From Acidobacteriota bacterium (lineage in GTDB: Bacteria > Acidobacteriota > Vicinamibacteria > Marinacidobacterales > Marinacidobacteraceae): a stretch of 64,000 nucleotides of DNA. The notes under the pieces were generated by a model. The model had not been told where the DNA came from. It did no database searches and worked only from the letters and a program-made list of their open reading frames with translations. A program made the position numbers and the translations under genes. Location: contig JAJEAO010000033.1 of NCBI GenBank assembly GCA_022822745.1, positions 1 to 64,000 of the forward strand. The letters are read 5' to 3'. Position 1 is the stretch's first letter; each line of letters opens with the position of its first letter. This document shows, one piece after another, positions 3,001-44,018 of this stretch.

Positions 3001-6000
3001 GCACCTGGAAACAACCATCCAGCAGCACCGGGTGCGCCGCCAGCCCTGACCCTGACAGTCCCGAACCTGACAGCCCCGAACCTGACAGCCCCGAACCGGT
3101 CAGACCCGACCCCGCCAGTCCCGCAGCCGCGAGATCCGCGGGCAGGGACACCTCCCCGACCGCCTCCCCGGGGCCCGTCCACATCTCCGTCAGCACCCGG
3201 AACGACGCGCCGTACCAGATCCCCGCAGACGCCAGCCGGCGATAGAAGCCCGCCGCGTCCACTTCGGAGAGCCCCGATCGCAACGCCTCCAGCTCCACGC
3301 GCTCCCCGCCAGCAGGCGCCAGTCCCACCCGTTTCCCGCCAGCAGGCGCCAGTCCCACCCGCCTCCCGCCAGCAGGCGCCAGTCCCGTTCCGCCCTCGGC
3401 GTGCCGCACCCATTCCCCCCGCTCTCCCTCGCGGCTCGCCACCTCCCAGCGCTCCTCCGAGCCGAGCGACCACTGCACCGCGGGCGCCGCGCCCTCCGCG
3501 AGCAGCAATGGCCGGTGGAGCTGCACGTCCGTCAGCGTCAGCGACGGCCCCCGCCCCTCGGCCGCGAGCGCTTCCATCGCCTGCGAGGCATAGAGCGCCG
3601 CCGGAACCAGCACCTCCCCGAACACCTGGTGGTCCGCGAGCCAGTCGGGGAACTCTGCCGAGAGCTCCGTCTCGAAGCTCACCTCTCCGCCGGGCGTGTC
3701 CCGCCGCACCCCGAGCAGCGGGTGGCCCGCTCGTTGTCGCCCCGGCGGAATCTGCACCCAGTACCGCTCCCGCTGGAACGGATACGTCGGCAGCGACACC
3801 CGCCGCCGCCGCTCGCCCGCGAAGAGGCCCTCGAACGACACCCCGAGGCCCGCCGCGTATGCCCCCGACACCGCCTCCGGAAAGCCCGTTTCCGGCCCCA
3901 GGCTCGCCACGACCGCCGGGCCGTCCGCGTCGGCGCCGCTCTCCGGCCAGGAAAGCGCGGCCAGGGGACCGAGCACCGCCCGCGGTCCGACCTCGATCAG
4001 CGCCCCCACCCCCAGATCCCGGAGCGCCCCCATTCCCGCCGCGAACCGCACCCGCTCCCGCGCCTGACGCCGCCAGCGCCTCCCGTCCCCCAGCTCTCCG
4101 GCGCCCACTTCCCGACCCGTCAGGTTGCTCACGAGCGCCGTCTCCGGCGCGCTCCAGCGGAGCGACCCCGCGGCCTCCTCCAGCTCCCCGAGCACCGGAT
4201 CCAGGAGCTCGCTGTGGAACGCGTGGCTCGTCTCCAGCTCCTTTGTCCGGACTCCCCGCTCGGCGAGACGCCGAACGAGCGAGCGCACCAGCCGCGACGG
4301 TCCGCTTGCCACGGCGTGCGTCCCGTTCTCCGCCGCGAGCGACAAGCCGGCGCCCTTCACTCCCAGGTTCGTCTTCGCGATCTCCGCCTCGACTTCCTCC
4401 ACCGGCGCGAACACCGCCGCCATCCCGCCTCCCGACGGAAGCGAACCCATCAGCGCCCCTCGCCGCGCCGCGAACGCGAGCCCCTCCTCCAGTTCCAGCG
4501 CTCCCGCCGCCCACGCCGCCCCGATCTCCCCCACGCTGTGCCCCAGCACCGCCGCCGGAGCCACCCCCACGCTCCGCCAGAGTTCCGTCAGACCCGCCGA
4601 GAGCGCGAAGAGCGCCGGCTGCGTCCACTCCGTCCGGTGGAGCAGATCCTCGGAACCCTCCGCCTCGCCGAACATCACCGGGAGCAGCGACTCTCCCCGC
4701 TCCTCCCGGAACGCCGCCTCGCAGCGGTCCAATACCTCCCGGAACACCGGCTCCGCCCGATACAGATCCCGCCCCATCCCCGGCCACTGGCTCCCCTGGC
4801 CGGTGAACAGGAACGCCACTCTCGGCGGCTCCGTCGGGGACGCTTCCCGCGACGGTCCCGAGGACTCCAGCTTCCGGAGCTGCGCCGCGAGCTCGGCCCC
4901 GTCCCGAAAGACCAGTCCCGCCCGCCACGCGAAGTGGCTCCGGCCCACCCCCGCCGTCCACGCCATGTCCGCCAGTTCCTCCGCGCTCCGGGAGGCCGGG
5001 TGTTCCCCCAGCCAGCGCAGGTAGCGGCCGGCGAGTTCGGCGAGCGCGGGGCCGGTGCGGGCGGAGAGGGGGAGCAGGCGCCGAGGCAGGGGAGCGAACT
5101 CCCTTTCCTCCGCCTCCTGGCGAGGGCGCCGGCCGGAGGTCGCCGCTCCCTGAACCGAATGGTCCTCCAGGATCACGTGGGCGTTCGTCCCCGAGTAGCC
5201 GAAGGAACTCACCCCGGCGCGCACCGGCCGGTCCAGCCCCTCCGGCCAGGGCGTCGCCTCCGACGTGACGCGCACCGGAAGCGATGCCCAGTCCAGCCGC
5301 GGGTTCGGCGTCTCGAAGTGCAGGTGCTTCGGGATCACACCCGCCCGCATCGCGAGCAGCACCTTGATCAGTCCCGCGACCCCCGCCGCCGCCTCCAGGT
5401 GCCCGAAGTTCGTCTTTACCGAACCCAGAAGCAGCGGACGCTCGGCCTCGCGGCCCCCCCCGTATGCCGATGCCGCCGCCCGCACCTCGATCGGATCCCC
5501 CAGCGCGGTCCCGGTCCCGTGCGCTTCCAGGTAGTCCACCGAGGACCCCTCGATCCCCGCCCGCCGGAGCGCTTCCCCGATCACCCGCTCCTGCGCCAGG
5601 CCGTTCGGCGCGGTCAGACCCGCGCTCGCCCCGTCCTGGTTCACCGCCGAACCCAGGACCACGCCGAGGATGCGGTCGCCAGCCCGCTCGGCGTCGGCGA
5701 GGCGCTTCAGCACCACGATCCCGCACCCCTCGCCCCGCACGTACCCGTCCGCCGCCGCATCGAACGTCTTGCAGCGGCCGTCCGGGGCCAGCATCCCGGC
5801 CGCCGCGAAGGTCTCCGTCAACCCGCCCCCGAGCACCGCGTTCACCCCTCCCGCGAGCGCCAGGTCCACCTCTCTCCGCTCCAGCGCCGCAACCGCCTGG
5901 TGCACCGCCACCAGCGAGGCCGAGCACGCGGTGTCCACGGCGACCGCCGGCCCCTCGAGCCCCAGCGTGTACGCCACCCGGCCGATCGCCGCGGCAAAAC

Positions 6001-39208: not shown

Positions 39209-39793
39209 TCAGCGCAGGGCGATTCCGGTGAACTCGTGCTGGCTGATGGCCTCGCGGATCTCTTCGGGGGTGGCGCCTTCGTCCGTCATCTGCTCAGCCA
39301 GGAGGACCTCCTGGAGACAGGTGCTTCAAGTCGCGGCGTGGTCGTCCACATAGCAGTCGAGCAGGCTCCCGTGGTCCGTCTGGACGCCGTGGCAGCCGCA
39401 CAGACAGGGAAGCTGCACCAGGATCTCGGGAATCTCCTTCGCGATCTGGTAGGCCTTCTGCAGCGTCTCGTTCGAGTAGGTGCTCGGCGGGAGCGTCACC
39501 GGGAACGGCCGGGCCTCTTCCGCCGAGTCGTAGTAGGGGAAGGGCTTCGCCGGCGCGGAAGGGGACTGGGCGGCGGCGACAGCGGCCGAGGCGGCGCTCT
39601 CCACGGTGTTGTCCCCGGAAACCGCCATGAAGAAGACGACGGCCCCCACGGCGAGAACTCCGATCGCGACGAACGGCAGCCACCCGAGCCGTCCGCCTCG
39701 CTCGAGGCCGGAAGGGCTGGCCGGTTCGGGCGGCGGGGGCGCGACGGGGCGGCGGGGCAGCTTGGATCGGGCGGAGGAGCGACGCTTCGGCAT
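39209..39793 (-). CDS. Membrane-anchored PCYCGC-family selenoprotein (in-frame TGA = Sec156)
   Basis: The frame runs 155 codons to a TGA at 39326-39328, then continues 38 codons to TGA 39209. The protein has an N-terminal membrane helix (~38-58), then LPCLCGCHG (Cys130, 132, 134), LLDCY (Cys147) and VDDHAAT-U-STCLQEVLL. PCYCGC proteins of Bacilli have DDHATKCGVCLE at this site, so the TGA replaces the first Cys of a CxxC pair and makes U156-S-T-C159. The C-terminal EGATPEEIREAISQHEF matches the family end. A perfect hairpin starts 11 nt after the TGA. The domain should be extracytoplasmic and redox or metal active; the reaction is unknown. ATG 39805 is an alternative start. A standard caller would stop at 39326. 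Confidence 0.88.
39298..39314 (-). promoter_or_regulatory. Bacterial SECIS-like hairpin of the PCYCGC selenoprotein
   Basis: On the minus strand CCAGGA-GGTCC-TCCTGG forms a perfect 6-bp stem (7 bp if G-C closes the loop) starting 11 nt after the TGA. The loop begins GGUC, as in E. coli fdhF, where SelB contacts it. The UGA-to-loop distance is 17 nt, within the known bacterial range of about 16-37 nt. Confidence 0.8.
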
Positions 39794-39827
39794 GATGAAC
39801 CCCATATCCTAGCCAACCTCACACCCG

Positions 39828-41903
39828 ATGGAAGAGAACCCGCCTCCCGGACCGGATCGGTCCCCCGTCGCCGGCTGGCTCGCCGGCGCCGCCGTGTTCC
39901 TCGGCGCCCTCCTGGTCTTCGTGGTCCAGCCGATGGTCGCGAAGCCGCTCCTCGCCTGGTACGGCGGCGCCCCCATGGTGTGGGCGGTGGCGCTGTTCTT
40001 CTTCCAGACCGCGCTGCTGCTCGGGTATCTGGGGGCTCATCTCCTCGTCACCCGGCTGCGGCCGGGAGCCCAGCGGATCGCGCACGCCGGGATCCTGCTC
40101 CTCGCGCTCGTCAGCCTGCCGCCTCTCGCCGACGCGGCGTGGGCGCCGGCGGGAGGCGAGGCGCCGGCGGGCCGGATCCTCCTGACGCTGCTGGCCTCGG
40201 TCGGCCTCCCCTTCGTCGTGGCGGCGGCGACGACGCCGCTCGTGTCGGCGTGGGTGGCGGCGTCCCGGCGCGCCGAGGGCGATCCCGGGGTCTATCGCCT
40301 CTACGCGCTCTCGAACGCCGGATCGCTGCTCGGCCTCGCGCTCTATCCGCTCGTGCTGGAGCCCTTTTCCGGCCTGGCGCAGCAGGGGCGGCTGTGGAGC
40401 GGGGTCTTCGTCCTGTGGCTGATCGCGTCGGTCGCCGCCGGGTGGTTCACGCTGGCGGGCGCCGATCGGTCGGCGACGCCCGCGCGCCGCGCGGGGAGCG
40501 GGTTCCACGGCGTCCCGGCGGGCCTCGCCGCGATGGGGTCTCTCGTGCTCGTCGCGGTCACGACCCACCTGACCCGGGACGTGGCCGCCTCGCCGTTTCT
40601 GTGGACGGTTCCGCTCGCCGTCTATCTGCTGACCTTCATCCTCGCGTTCCGGGGCGGCGTCCCCTACCCGCGGCGGCTCCTTCCGCCACTCGTCGTGGCC
40701 TCCTCGCTCGCGTGTCTGGCTGTCTGGTTCCAGGACATCACCTACGGCCTCGACCGGGCGCCGTTCGCTCACGCAGCGGCCGGCATGCTGTTCCTGTTCA
40801 CCGCCGGCTGGGCGCTCCACGGCGAGATCGCCCGTCGGAAACCGGCGCCGTCGGGGCTCACCGGGTTCTATCTCTCGGTCACCGCCGGCGGCGCGGCGGG
40901 AGGGCTCGTGGCGTCCCTCGCGAGCCCGCTCGTGTTCCCGAACCTCTGGGAGTACCCGCTCGCGCTGGCTCTGGCGCCGGCGGCGGTCGCGTTCGCCCGG
41001 GGGCGGCCGCAGTTCGTGGCCCGGATCGTTCTCAGCGGAACGACGGGCCTCGCGATCGCGGTCACGGCCCTCGAGCACCAGCGGCCGCTCGTCTCCGGGC
41101 GCAACTTCTTCGGCGTCGTGCGGGTCATGGAGGCCTATCCCGACACGCCGGAGTGGCGGCGGGACATCTGGCACGGGGGCATCGGCCACGGAACCCAGTA
41201 CCTCGCTCCGACCCGCCGCCGGGAACCCACGCTCTACTACTACGACGGCACCGGCATCGCGGCCGCCGTGACCCGACATCCGAAGCGCGCCGGCGGCTTT
41301 CCGATGCGGGTCGCCGTCGTGGGACTGGGGGCCGGATCCCTCGCCGTGTACGGCGAACGGGGCGACCTGTTCCGCTTCTACGAGATCGACCCCCAGGTGG
41401 AGGACCGCGCGCGCGACTACTTCACCTACCTGGAGGACACCCCGGCGAACGTCGAGGTCGTCCTCGGGGACGGCCGGCTGAGTCTCTCCCGCGAGGCGGA
41501 GCGGGAGGAGCCCGGATGGGACCTGCTCGTGCTCGACGCCTTCTCCGGCGACGCCATCCCGGTCCACCTGCTCACGGCGGAGGCGTTCGACCTCTACCGG
41601 CGGCGGCTGGCGCCCGGGGGCGTCCTCGCGGTCCACATCTCGAACCGTCATGTGGACCTCGCCCCGGTGGTGCGGGCCCACGCCCGCCGCCTCGATCTCA
41701 TGTCGCTGCTGACCGTGAGCGAGCCGGATCAGGACCGTCTTCGCTACACCGCGACCTGGATCCTCCTGAGCGCGAACAGCGACTTCATCACGGACCCGGC
41801 CGTCCTCGGCCGCGCCGAGCCGTGGACGGGGGAGGCGGTGGAGCCCGGCCCCCGCCACCAGTGGACCGACGACTACTCGAATCTCCTCGGCGTTCTGCGC
41901 TGA
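39828..41903 (+). CDS. Spermidine-synthase-like methyltransferase-fold membrane protein
   Basis: The 691-residue protein has about ten N-terminal hydrophobic segments (FLGALLVFVVQPMVAKPLLA, FFFQTALLLGYLGAHLL). A soluble C-terminal domain carries VAVVGLGAGSLAVYG, FYEIDPQVEDRARDYFTYLE, VVLGDGRLSL and LLVLDAFSGDAIPVHLLTAE. This is the spermidine/spermine synthase Rossmann fold. Fusions of this kind are common but their product is not known. The ATG at 39828 faces the divergent selenoprotein gene 34 nt away, so they share one regulatory region. Confidence 0.88.
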   Translation: MEENPPPGPDRSPVAGWLAGAAVFLGALLVFVVQPMVAKPLLAWYGGAPMVWAVALFFFQTALLLGYLGAHLLVTRLRPGAQRIAHAGILLLALVSLPPLADAAWAPAGGEAPAGRILLTLLASVGLPFVVAAATTPLVSAWVAASRRAEGDPGVYRLYALSNAGSLLGLALYPLVLEPFSGLAQQGRLWSGVFVLWLIASVAAGWFTLAGADRSATPARRAGSGFHGVPAGLAAMGSLVLVAVTTHLTRDVAASPFLWTVPLAVYLLTFILAFRGGVPYPRRLLPPLVVASSLACLAVWFQDITYGLDRAPFAHAAAGMLFLFTAGWALHGEIARRKPAPSGLTGFYLSVTAGGAAGGLVASLASPLVFPNLWEYPLALALAPAAVAFARGRPQFVARIVLSGTTGLAIAVTALEHQRPLVSGRNFFGVVRVMEAYPDTPEWRRDIWHGGIGHGTQYLAPTRRREPTLYYYDGTGIAAAVTRHPKRAGGFPMRVAVVGLGAGSLAVYGERGDLFRFYEIDPQVEDRARDYFTYLEDTPANVEVVLGDGRLSLSREAEREEPGWDLLVLDAFSGDAIPVHLLTAEAFDLYRRRLAPGGVLAVHISNRHVDLAPVVRAHARRLDLMSLLTVSEPDQDRLRYTATWILLSANSDFITDPAVLGRAEPWTGEAVEPGPRHQWTDDYSNLLGVLR

Positions 41904-41990
41904 TCGGGCGTGGATCCGGCCGGCGAGCGCGCCGGGACGCGGAAACCCCTTACAATTGAGCGGCTTCGAGTTCTACCTGGAGGGATCCCC

Positions 41991-44018
41991 GTGAAAACAA
42001 GAGTTGCCGTCACCCTGCTTCTCGCGTCGCTCCTCGCGACCGTCGCGATCGCCCAGAACCGCGACCAGCCCGAGGGACAGTGGCGCTACCAGAGCGGGGA
42101 CGCGTGGGGCACGCGCTACTCCCCGCTCGCCGATGTGAACGCCGGGAACTTCGAGGATCTCCAGGTGGCGTGGATCTGGCGGGGCGACAATTTCGGCCCC
42201 AAGGTCAGCTATCTCTCGAAGTCCACCCCCAGCTACATCGACGGGAAGCTGTTCACCGTCGTGGGCTATCGCCGCGCCGTGGTCGCCATGGATCCCGCGA
42301 CCGGGGAGACGCTGTGGACCTACAGCGAGCCGCACACCAGGCGGTTCGAGGAATCCATGCGCTCCAGCTACGGCAAGGGCGTCGGCTACGCCCACCTGGA
42401 CGGCCGGCTGGTGATCTACGTGATCAGCCCCGGGTTCTTCCTCCACGCGCTCGACGGGGAGACCGGTCGGCACATCGAGGGCTTCGGCAGCAAGGTGGAC
42501 ATCCCCGGTTTCCCCGAGACCGGCGTCGTGGACCTCCTGGCGGACATGGGGCACAACTACGACCCCTACGAGGGGCTGCCCCCGACGGTGGGCTACATCA
42601 CGAGTTCCTCCCCGCCGATCGTCGTGAACGGAACCGTCGTGATCGGGAACTCCCACGCGCAGGGCTACCACCAGACCCGGATCGAGAACGTCCCCGGCGA
42701 CATCCTCGCCTACGACGCCCGGACCGGCCAGCACAAGTGGAAGTTCCACGTGATCCCGCAGTCCGAGGACGAGTTCGGCATGGACACGTGGGAGAACGAC
42801 GCCTGGCGGTGGACCGGTGATGTCTCCTCGTGGGCCCCGCTCTCGGCGGATCTCGACCGCGGCATCGTCTATATCCCGACGAACGCCCCGACGATCGACT
42901 TCTACGGCGGTTTCCGCCCGGGCGACAACCTGTTCGGGACCAGCGTGATCGCGCTGGATGCGGATACCGGCGAGCGCGTCTGGCACTTCCAGACCACGCA
43001 CCACCCGATCTGGAACTACGACCTGCCGAACATTCCGATCCTCGCCGACGTGACCGTGAACGGCGAGAAAGTCCCGATGGCGATCCAGACCACGAAGCAG
43101 GGGCTCACCTTCGCCTTCAACCGGGAGACCGGCGAACCGGTGTGGCCCATCGAGGAGCGACCGGTCCCGGCTTCGATCGTGCCGGGCGAGAAGCTCGCCG
43201 AGACGCAGCCGTTCCCGACGGTGCCGCTGCCCACCGAGCCGCTCGACCTGAGCGACGAGCACCTGAACAACCTCACGCCGGAGATCCACGAGAAGGCGAA
43301 GGCCATCGTGAGCGAGTACCGGGTGGGCGGTCCCTACATGCCGCCGATCCCGAAGGGCTACGACGAGAACAGGGGCTGGATCGCCTGCGGCAGCACCTCC
43401 GGAGTGAACATCACCCACCCGGCCGCCATGGACCCCGAGACGGGCATCCTCTACCAGTCCTCCGGACCGAACTGCTCCGGTCGGATCGTCCAGCCGGGCG
43501 TGGACGCGGACCGGCCGGTCCACGAATGCACCTCGCCCACCGGCAAGTGCACCACGATCGGGGAGACGGTGTCGGACTGGGTGAACTACCGCACGATCGG
43601 CGTGCCGGGTCCCGACGGACTCCCGATCTACCGGCCGCCGTGGAGCCGCGTCACCGCGATCGACATGAACACCGGGGAGCACCTCTGGTGGGTGCCGGTC
43701 GGCGAGGCGAACGATCGCATCAGGAACAACCCGGCCCTCGCGGGCGTGGACCTCTCGATGACCGGCGGGCAGGGGCGCGCGATTCTCATGGTGAGCGGGG
43801 ATCTCCTGCTCACGACGGAGGGCATGCGGGGAGCGCCCATCCTGAACGCCCACGACAAGCGGACCGGCGAGAAGGTCGGGAGCGTCGAGCTGCCTGCGCC
43901 GGGGATGTACGGGATGATGACCTACCGGCACGAGGGCCGGCAGTACATCCTCGTCCAGACCGGCGAACGCGGCGCCCTCCCCGAGTCCTACACCGCGCTC
44001 GCCCTCCCGAGCAACTAG
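41991..44018 (+). CDS. Exported PQQ-dependent dehydrogenase (quinoprotein)
   Basis: The 675-residue protein starts at GTG 41991 behind GGAGGGA, with signal peptide MKTRVAVTLLLASLLATVAI and AQ at the cut. TTACAAT at 41950-41956 is a plausible -10 element. Eight-bladed propeller motifs recur (AMDPATGETLW, AYDARTGQHKWKF, ALDADTGERVWHFQ, AIDMNTGEHLWW). HHPIWNYDLPNIPILADV is the PQQ-propeller segment typical of glucose/alcohol quinoproteins. It oxidises a sugar or alcohol in the periplasm, passing electrons to the respiratory chain. No cytochrome domain is fused. Confidence 0.92.
   Translation: MKTRVAVTLLLASLLATVAIAQNRDQPEGQWRYQSGDAWGTRYSPLADVNAGNFEDLQVAWIWRGDNFGPKVSYLSKSTPSYIDGKLFTVVGYRRAVVAMDPATGETLWTYSEPHTRRFEESMRSSYGKGVGYAHLDGRLVIYVISPGFFLHALDGETGRHIEGFGSKVDIPGFPETGVVDLLADMGHNYDPYEGLPPTVGYITSSSPPIVVNGTVVIGNSHAQGYHQTRIENVPGDILAYDARTGQHKWKFHVIPQSEDEFGMDTWENDAWRWTGDVSSWAPLSADLDRGIVYIPTNAPTIDFYGGFRPGDNLFGTSVIALDADTGERVWHFQTTHHPIWNYDLPNIPILADVTVNGEKVPMAIQTTKQGLTFAFNRETGEPVWPIEERPVPASIVPGEKLAETQPFPTVPLPTEPLDLSDEHLNNLTPEIHEKAKAIVSEYRVGGPYMPPIPKGYDENRGWIACGSTSGVNITHPAAMDPETGILYQSSGPNCSGRIVQPGVDADRPVHECTSPTGKCTTIGETVSDWVNYRTIGVPGPDGLPIYRPPWSRVTAIDMNTGEHLWWVPVGEANDRIRNNPALAGVDLSMTGGQGRAILMVSGDLLLTTEGMRGAPILNAHDKRTGEKVGSVELPAPGMYGMMTYRHEGRQYILVQTGERGALPESYTALALPSN

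Follow-up and report, generated by a model that had tools for sequence, protein, structure and literature searches.

The window considered here comprises 64,000 nucleotides from an Acidobacteriota bacterium (assembly GCA_022822745.1, contig JAJEAO010000033.1, positions 1 to 64,000; order Marinacidobacterales, family Marinacidobacteraceae). It carries, on its minus strand, a PCYCGC-domain (PF13798) gene that runs from 39793 to 39209 as a single reading frame whose sole interruption is a TGA at 39326-39328 (Table 1). Under translation table 11, the open reading frame (ORF) terminates at this TGA; with the codon read as a residue, the product has 194 residues, the TGA encodes position 156 (U156), and the frame closes at a terminal TGA (39209-39211). 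The start codon adopted was chosen because relatives start at the same position. A sequence-only reading of this stretch had proposed that the frame passes through the TGA into 38 codons completing the PCYCGC domain of a selenoprotein, and the PF13798 match (residues 107-189, 45.8 bits against a cut-off of 25) does span the TGA. The comparisons presented below indicate that this UGA is very likely read as selenocysteine (Sec).

A genome-wide search found PF13798 in a single copy, with one internal TGA. The protein also matches the NCBIfam model NF041379 (CYCXC family (seleno)protein, OS_HP4) at 103.6 bits against a cut-off of 90, and this model matches all 66 aligned members with E values up to 0.001. 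Both parts of the CYCXC motif are present in the window protein, namely CLCGC at residues 130-134 and U156-S-T-C159. The name OS_HP4 reportedly goes back to the original Olavius symbiont paper. In Table 1 of PMC13188914 (2026), 'CYCXC family protein (hypothetical protein OS_HP4), PF13798, UxxC' is among the families predicted with high confidence, PMC9312934 (2022) lists OS_HP4 with UxxC and without a domain, and PMC13068155 counts one CYCXC member among proteins of unknown function. The sequence-only reading had taken Sec to be undescribed in this family; given NF041379 and the PMC13188914 listing, it is already in print, and the window gene, as judged by its sequence, adds a member to a selenoprotein family that was known before, CYCXC/OS_HP4. 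Our literature search on Sec or function in PF13798 found no function for the family.

Evidence for recoding comes from homologues. PF13798 was searched in 149 related genomes, including that of the window, and gave 88 matches in 81 genomes, with the strand orientation of homologue loci set by the motif. Exactly one in-frame stop was found in 34 of the 88 matches, and it was always TGA, never TAA or TAG. At the same alignment position, the 87 parsed matches hold 34 TGA and 53 Cys codons (43 TGC and 10 TGT), so that UxxC aligns with CxxC of homologues as had been anticipated; L073 was dropped because its second Cys is missing, whereas L094, which also lacks it, was counted as Cys. With TGA accounting for 961 of the 1292 stops in the window, the chance of observing 34 TGA out of 34 is about 4e-5. 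The openness of the frame was rejected as evidence, being uninformative at 72% GC: counting every frame, 486 of the window's 961 TGA stops precede at least 38 open codons, so that 38 open codons after the TGA are no evidence alone and the case therefore rests on comparison. Within the genome's own taxonomic family, 9 of 10 genomes have a PF13798 match (G008 has none) and all nine carry the TGA; in the same order, two further matches (G011 and G012) carry Cys, and two further genomes have no match. In the own family, the ratio of nonsynonymous to synonymous differences (pN/pS) goes from 0.12-0.24 in the 40 codons preceding the TGA to 0.36-0.40 in the 38 that follow it, and reaches 1.11-1.54 in 12 codons beyond the second stop. 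That final stop is TAG in seven of eight own-family relatives and TAA in one, the window gene using TGA. Sister genomes thus retain both the TGA and the protein beyond it. Two other genomes, G124 and G125, each harbor one TGA copy and one Cys copy of CYCXC.

The genome also encodes the machinery for Sec insertion, which the sequence-only reading had suggested looking for; with this and the TGA retained in sister genomes, neither of the refuting outcomes named there came about. Its selenocysteine tRNA (tRNA-Sec) scores 73.9 bits against a gathering score of 47, with the anticodon called tca by ARAGORN, and SelB (308 bits, cut-off 242), SelA (428, cut-off 268), and SelD (249, cut-off 125) are all present; SelB and tRNA-Sec would decode the window UGA. 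The selA gene is split across the end of contig G000:C81 and the start of G000:C116 (profile positions 3-393 and 387-454), which looks like a contig break rather than a broken gene. Among the 34 TGA genomes, tRNA-Sec was found in 29, SelB in 31, both in 26, and at least one in all 34, the gaps being attributable, perhaps, to incomplete assemblies. Of the 47 Cys-only genomes, 30 have tRNA-Sec and/or SelB and 17 have neither (Fisher p 3.8e-5 for TGA vs Cys-only, a guide only, as the genomes are related). Eight named genomes were also tested for tRNA-Sec: six scored above the cut-off, all TGA carriers and both Neobacillus genomes among them, and two scored below it, those of Paenibacillus (Cys) and of L174 (TGA; 0.9 Mb searched). 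Elsewhere in the genome of the window, a CMD/AhpD-type match with one in-frame TGA (G000:C65:104846-105028) is perhaps a further selenoprotein of a known kind.

Downstream of the TGA lies a putative selenocysteine insertion sequence (SECIS), a perfect hairpin whose 7-bp stem closes a 3-nt loop (-9.9 kcal/mol when folded alone) and that starts at the 12th nucleotide after the TGA. The sequence-only reading had recognized this perfect, SECIS-like hairpin; the loop it gave, GGUC, is amended here to GUC, or GGUCC if 6 bp are counted. The hairpin falls within the bacterial SECIS (bSECIS) constraints set out in PMC13188914 (loop of 3-9 nt, G in the first two loop positions, UGA-to-loop distance of 16-37 nt), its UGA-to-loop spacing being 18 nt. 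Alone, it is only mildly unusual, since a perfect hairpin of at least 7 bp at such spacing follows 19 of 965 TGA trinucleotides in the window. Conservation adds to this: the hairpin is identical in 9/9 own-family genes, as a check proposed with the original reading had called for, and because it is invariant there, this version offers no covariation test. The folding energy of 51 nt and the best local hairpin showed no difference between the 34 TGA and the 53 Cys genes (p 0.88); folding energy being uninformative, synonymous conservation and covariation were used instead.

Both could be followed in the wider clade, whose hairpin is of a different design. The codons for V-A-R-D-A after the motif are one and the same 15-nt sequence in 23 of 24 TGA genes; the 11 Cys genes with the VARDA peptide use 10 different 15-nt sequences, none of them the TGA-gene version. 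At VARDA, TGA genes reach a codon identity of 0.92-1.00, compared with 0.41-0.53 for Cys genes, with no such rise at the adjoining codons. The 6-bp helix formed here (TCGCG-CGTGA-CGCGA plus the pair below) is paired in 198/198 cells over 33 distinct TGA sequences, including four from Bacillota, and changes on both sides occur at two pairs, in three sequences (L069, L157, and L165). Shuffled controls average 96.7% and never reach 100%, slid versions give 3-65%, and the number of further pair types is not unusual (124/500 shuffles). At the same positions, 50 Cys homologues are 68.0% paired vs 67.3% when shuffled. Left out of hairpin alignment A7 were the nine own-family genes as well as five Actinomycetota genes and L174, which have hairpins of other sequence; G011, G012, and G090 were left out of alignment A8. 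The Neobacillus genes retain the wider-clade stem and loop. On the tree, at least eight Sec/Cys changes are needed, two of which are forced by well-supported branches, the tree having few columns and many open forks. Together with the two unrelated SECIS designs, this suggests more than one Sec/Cys switch in the family.

The family extends well beyond the lineage of the window. A scan of named genomes yielded 113 relatives, of which 80 were kept and 77 parsed, many contigs being shared with the relatives' set described above. TGA forms make up 30 of the 77 (22 Acidobacteriota, 5 Actinomycetota, 2 Bacillota, and one labelled Myxococcota) and Cys forms 47 (27 Acidobacteriota, 14 Chloroflexota, 3 archaea, 2 Actinomycetota, and 1 Bacillota). 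L157, L165, and L174 stand outside the pattern count of 80, the TGA being present and the pattern missed. Labels are doubtful for L143 (titled Acidimicrobiia) and L164 (titled Deltaproteobacteria), both Acidobacteriota-like sequences, the latter beside an acidobacterial kinase. L174, from the metagenome-assembled genome (MAG) bacterium DS4.bin43, has TGA at both positions of its motif at about 5208-5220 (UxxU; TGA GAC TTA TGA), and the hairpin behind the motif is the one seen in Actinomycetota genes; this may be either a sequence error or a double selenoprotein. For Bacilli, the sequence-only reading had expected Cys-x-x-Cys, which holds for Paenibacillus turpanensis (L146) but not for Neobacillus sp. 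PS3-12 (L163 and L172), N. massiliamazoniensis (L165), or a Bacillota MAG (L157), all of which carry TGA. The complete genome of Neobacillus sp. PS3-12 thus contains two CYCXC genes of the TGA form, of which one lies within a cytochrome c maturation cluster.

Table 1. Features of the CYCXC locus in the window
Feature	Coordinates	Strand	Basis or remark
CYCXC/PF13798 selenoprotein gene (predicted)	39209..39793	-	194 codons + stop; start ATG 39791-39793 (inferred); second in-frame ATG at 39805
In-frame TGA, residue 156, predicted Sec of U-S-T-C motif	39326..39328	-	34 TGA + 53 Cys among 87 parsed homologues
Predicted SECIS hairpin CCAGGAG-GTC-CTCCTGG	39298..39314	-	folds; kept in 9/9 own-family genes
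C-L-C-G-C motif, residues 130-134	39392..39406	-	C130, C132, G133, and C134 invariant in 66 aligned members
Conserved Cys147	39353..39355	-	invariant in 66 aligned members
Cys159, partner of U156	39317..39319	-	invariant in 66 aligned members
Hydrophobic helix, residues 39-58, predicted membrane anchor	39620..39679	-	helix in model and hydrophobic sequence; anchoring inferred
PF13798 domain, residues 107-189, across TGA	39227..39475	-	Pfam match
691-aa ORF, divergent, kept beside CYCXC in own family	39828..41903	+	ORF list; Pfam search, no match
Pyrroloquinoline quinone (PQQ)-dependent dehydrogenase, next gene, kept in own family	41910..44018	+	PF01011, 527.9 bits

An AlphaFold2 model with Cys replacing Sec (mean pLDDT, the per-residue confidence, 78.6; pTM, the global fold score, 0.58) consists of a helix at residues 39-58 and a helical domain at residues 101-190, with block confidences of 73-98. 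A sequence search for a solved relative returned none, its only two matches (E 0.092 and 0.89) falling in the N-terminal half, and Foldseek with the model found nothing in the PDB with E up to 0.001; the CcmH row of the structure comparison comes from 20 re-aligned chains only. The predicted membrane helix at 39-58 agrees with the sequence-only reading, and the envelope redox role put forward there is likely.

Gene neighbourhoods were called with a composition-scored caller, a plain ORF list, and tblastn with fixed queries; a choice of neighbour ORFs by length and GC was dropped, as it selected antisense ORFs. In the window, the gene is flanked divergently by the 691-aa ORF and then the PQQ dehydrogenase, and the own family retains this order. 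The tRNA-Thr (cgt) that ARAGORN places at 40207-40285, within the 691-aa ORF, is likely a false positive. None of 12 context queries, including the sulfite-oxidase-type molybdenum oxidoreductase, CcmE, CcmF, and the kinase, matched in the window, and CcmH is present in the genome outside the window; the function of the window copy is therefore taken from the family. Among 31 non-acidobacterial loci, CcmF lies near CYCXC in five, from Bacillota, Chloroflexota, and Methanoperedens. For example, the Neobacillus order (L163 and L165) is CYCXC, a dihaem cytochrome c, an unknown gene, CcmE, and CcmF, with CcmH adjoining CcmF by position, and in Methanoperedens (L140 and L144) CYCXC is followed 0-1 nt on by a CcdA/DsbD-type gene, then a Fer4_5-type protein, a thioredoxin-like gene, and CcmF. 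In Chloroflexota, a cupredoxin/COX2-type gene adjoins CYCXC in 10 of 14 loci, and a Fer4_5-type protein is found in 8 of 14. These non-acidobacterial neighbours point to extracytoplasmic electron transfer and cofactor attachment. In Acidobacteriota, a sulfite-oxidase-type molybdenum oxidoreductase is near CYCXC in 8 of 49 named loci, on the opposite strand in those shown, and a hybrid histidine kinase (HisKA, HATPase, and receiver domains) is encoded downstream, on the strand of CYCXC, at 37 of 56 loci of the relatives' set and at 33 of the 49 named ones, the latter count including the own lineage. Most loci from Acidobacteriota of other orders have this conserved kinase immediately after CYCXC (e.g. 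L149:5334-6863), beside Sec and Cys forms alike.

The window gene thus encodes a CYCXC/OS_HP4 member that very likely contains Sec and is predicted to be membrane-tethered. Taken with the profile comparisons discussed below, the contexts make it likely that this protein acts outside the cytoplasm in a CcmH-like manner, keeping reduced the cysteines that bind metal in copper proteins or c-type cytochromes. The more general assignment, an extracytoplasmic thiol/selenol oxidoreductase, is probable; the narrower role, in maturing cytochrome c or copper proteins, is advanced tentatively, as a fair conjecture a little short of even. Mechanistically, residues 39-58 would anchor the protein with the Cys/Sec domain outside. 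U156-S-T-C159 may then act as a selenol/thiol pair, and the CxCGC cluster may either provide a second pair or bind a metal. Electrons would possibly come from CcdA/DsbD and thioredoxin-like partners and perhaps pass to the cysteines of CXXCH motifs or copper sites, as has been suggested for CcmH.

The hybrid kinase neighbourhood is left unexplained by a CcmH-like role, and it is the best support for a different proposal, in which the selenoprotein would sense redox state or metals in the envelope and signal to the kinase beside it, its Cys/Sec cluster sensing oxidants or soft metals rather than reducing proteins. A cation efflux gene ahead of L174 and CopC/CopD genes near L146 would also suit a sensor. 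We nevertheless consider signalling unlikely: kinase matches are absent from the window and from the own-family loci of the relatives' set, and the neighbours outside Acidobacteriota are electron-transfer and Ccm genes. It is likewise improbable that the protein binds or delivers a metal such as copper, with Cys and Sec serving as ligands instead of a redox pair. CxCGC and further Cys and His residues are invariant or nearly so, as a metal site would have it, and the cupredoxin/COX2-type gene stands next in 10/14 Chloroflexota, but Sec/Cys exchange at the first CxxC position is the pattern of the thiol-redox selenoproteins tabulated in PMC13188914, and the CcdA and thioredoxin neighbours in Methanoperedens argue for thiol chemistry. 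That the TGA is an ordinary stop after a 155-residue product, with a relic downstream, is very improbable: none of the 51 database relatives listed aligns over more than 79% of the read-through query, a result that gene callers would yield either way, and the selection on codons after the TGA, the invariable use of TGA as the in-frame stop, the Sec machinery in 34/34 TGA genomes, and a hairpin conserved in TGA genes only all speak against it. None of these 51 relatives has an alignment past the UGA; gene callers stop there, and the probable active site of such proteins is thereby lost.

From a broader point of view, the window gene is an instance of Sec use in an uncultured acidobacterial lineage, and the neighbourhoods give a selenoprotein family without an assigned function a concrete, testable role, for which Neobacillus sp. 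PS3-12 would be well suited. The CcmH-like role proposed above can be set beside three known systems. In common with the CYCXC/OS_HP4 family at large, the window gene has UxxC after the CxCGC motif; its branch differs in a short CxCGC-UxxC spacer common to its order and in its own SECIS hairpin, and the window copy has no kinase or Ccm neighbours. AhpD/CMD-type selenoproteins (PF02627) also have Sec in a two-residue-spaced pair ahead of a helix, with CxxU in the PMC13188914 table vs UxxC in CYCXC. Homology with them is unsupported, as the PF02627 model scores below its cut-off on the window protein (11.3 bits vs 23, E 0.35) and hhalign gives CYCXC vs AhpD/CMD a probability of 9.3%.

The comparison with CcmH (PF03918), the thiol reductase of System I cytochrome c maturation, goes further. 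By hhalign, CYCXC and CcmH align with a probability of 85.4% (P 5.8e-6), CxCGC...C...U falling on CxC(G)xC...C...C. When the comparison was rerun, the score was 33.5, 60 column shuffles gave at most 3.5, and reversed CcmH gave 14.5; with Cys masked, the score falls to 14.5 (masked shuffles at most 9.1), so that the Cys pattern accounts for much of the signal. The PF03918 model itself does not match the window protein at E up to 1 and matches one of 66 members at 0.062, so the gene is not filed as CcmH. In PMC3601427, CcmH is regarded as the protein that reduces apocytochrome c at its CXXCH cysteines, with reductant from DsbD or CcdA, and archaeal genomes are said to lack CcmH. A scenario in which CYCXC fills an empty CcmH slot in archaea was rejected in this form, both Methanoperedens genomes having two CcmH matches each. 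More speculatively, and we regard this as a minority possibility, CYCXC selenoproteins may descend from CcmH as a second line of thiol/selenol reductases, linked to CcmF/CcdA/cupredoxin operons from archaea to Acidobacteriota, that adopted Sec more than once, as the two unrelated SECIS designs would have it, and keeps cytochrome c and copper-site cysteines reduced; if so, they would be the first selenoenzymes with an assigned part in the maturation of cytochrome c or of copper proteins. In the genomes compared here, CcmH also has the CxC(G)xC...C...C arrangement, shares a cluster with CYCXC in Neobacillus, and, like CYCXC, is taken to be membrane-anchored and extracytoplasmic. On the other hand, CYCXC has an extra Cys/Sec pair and an insert, and its predicted anchor is N-terminal, whereas the hydrophobic stretch of these CcmH proteins follows the domain.
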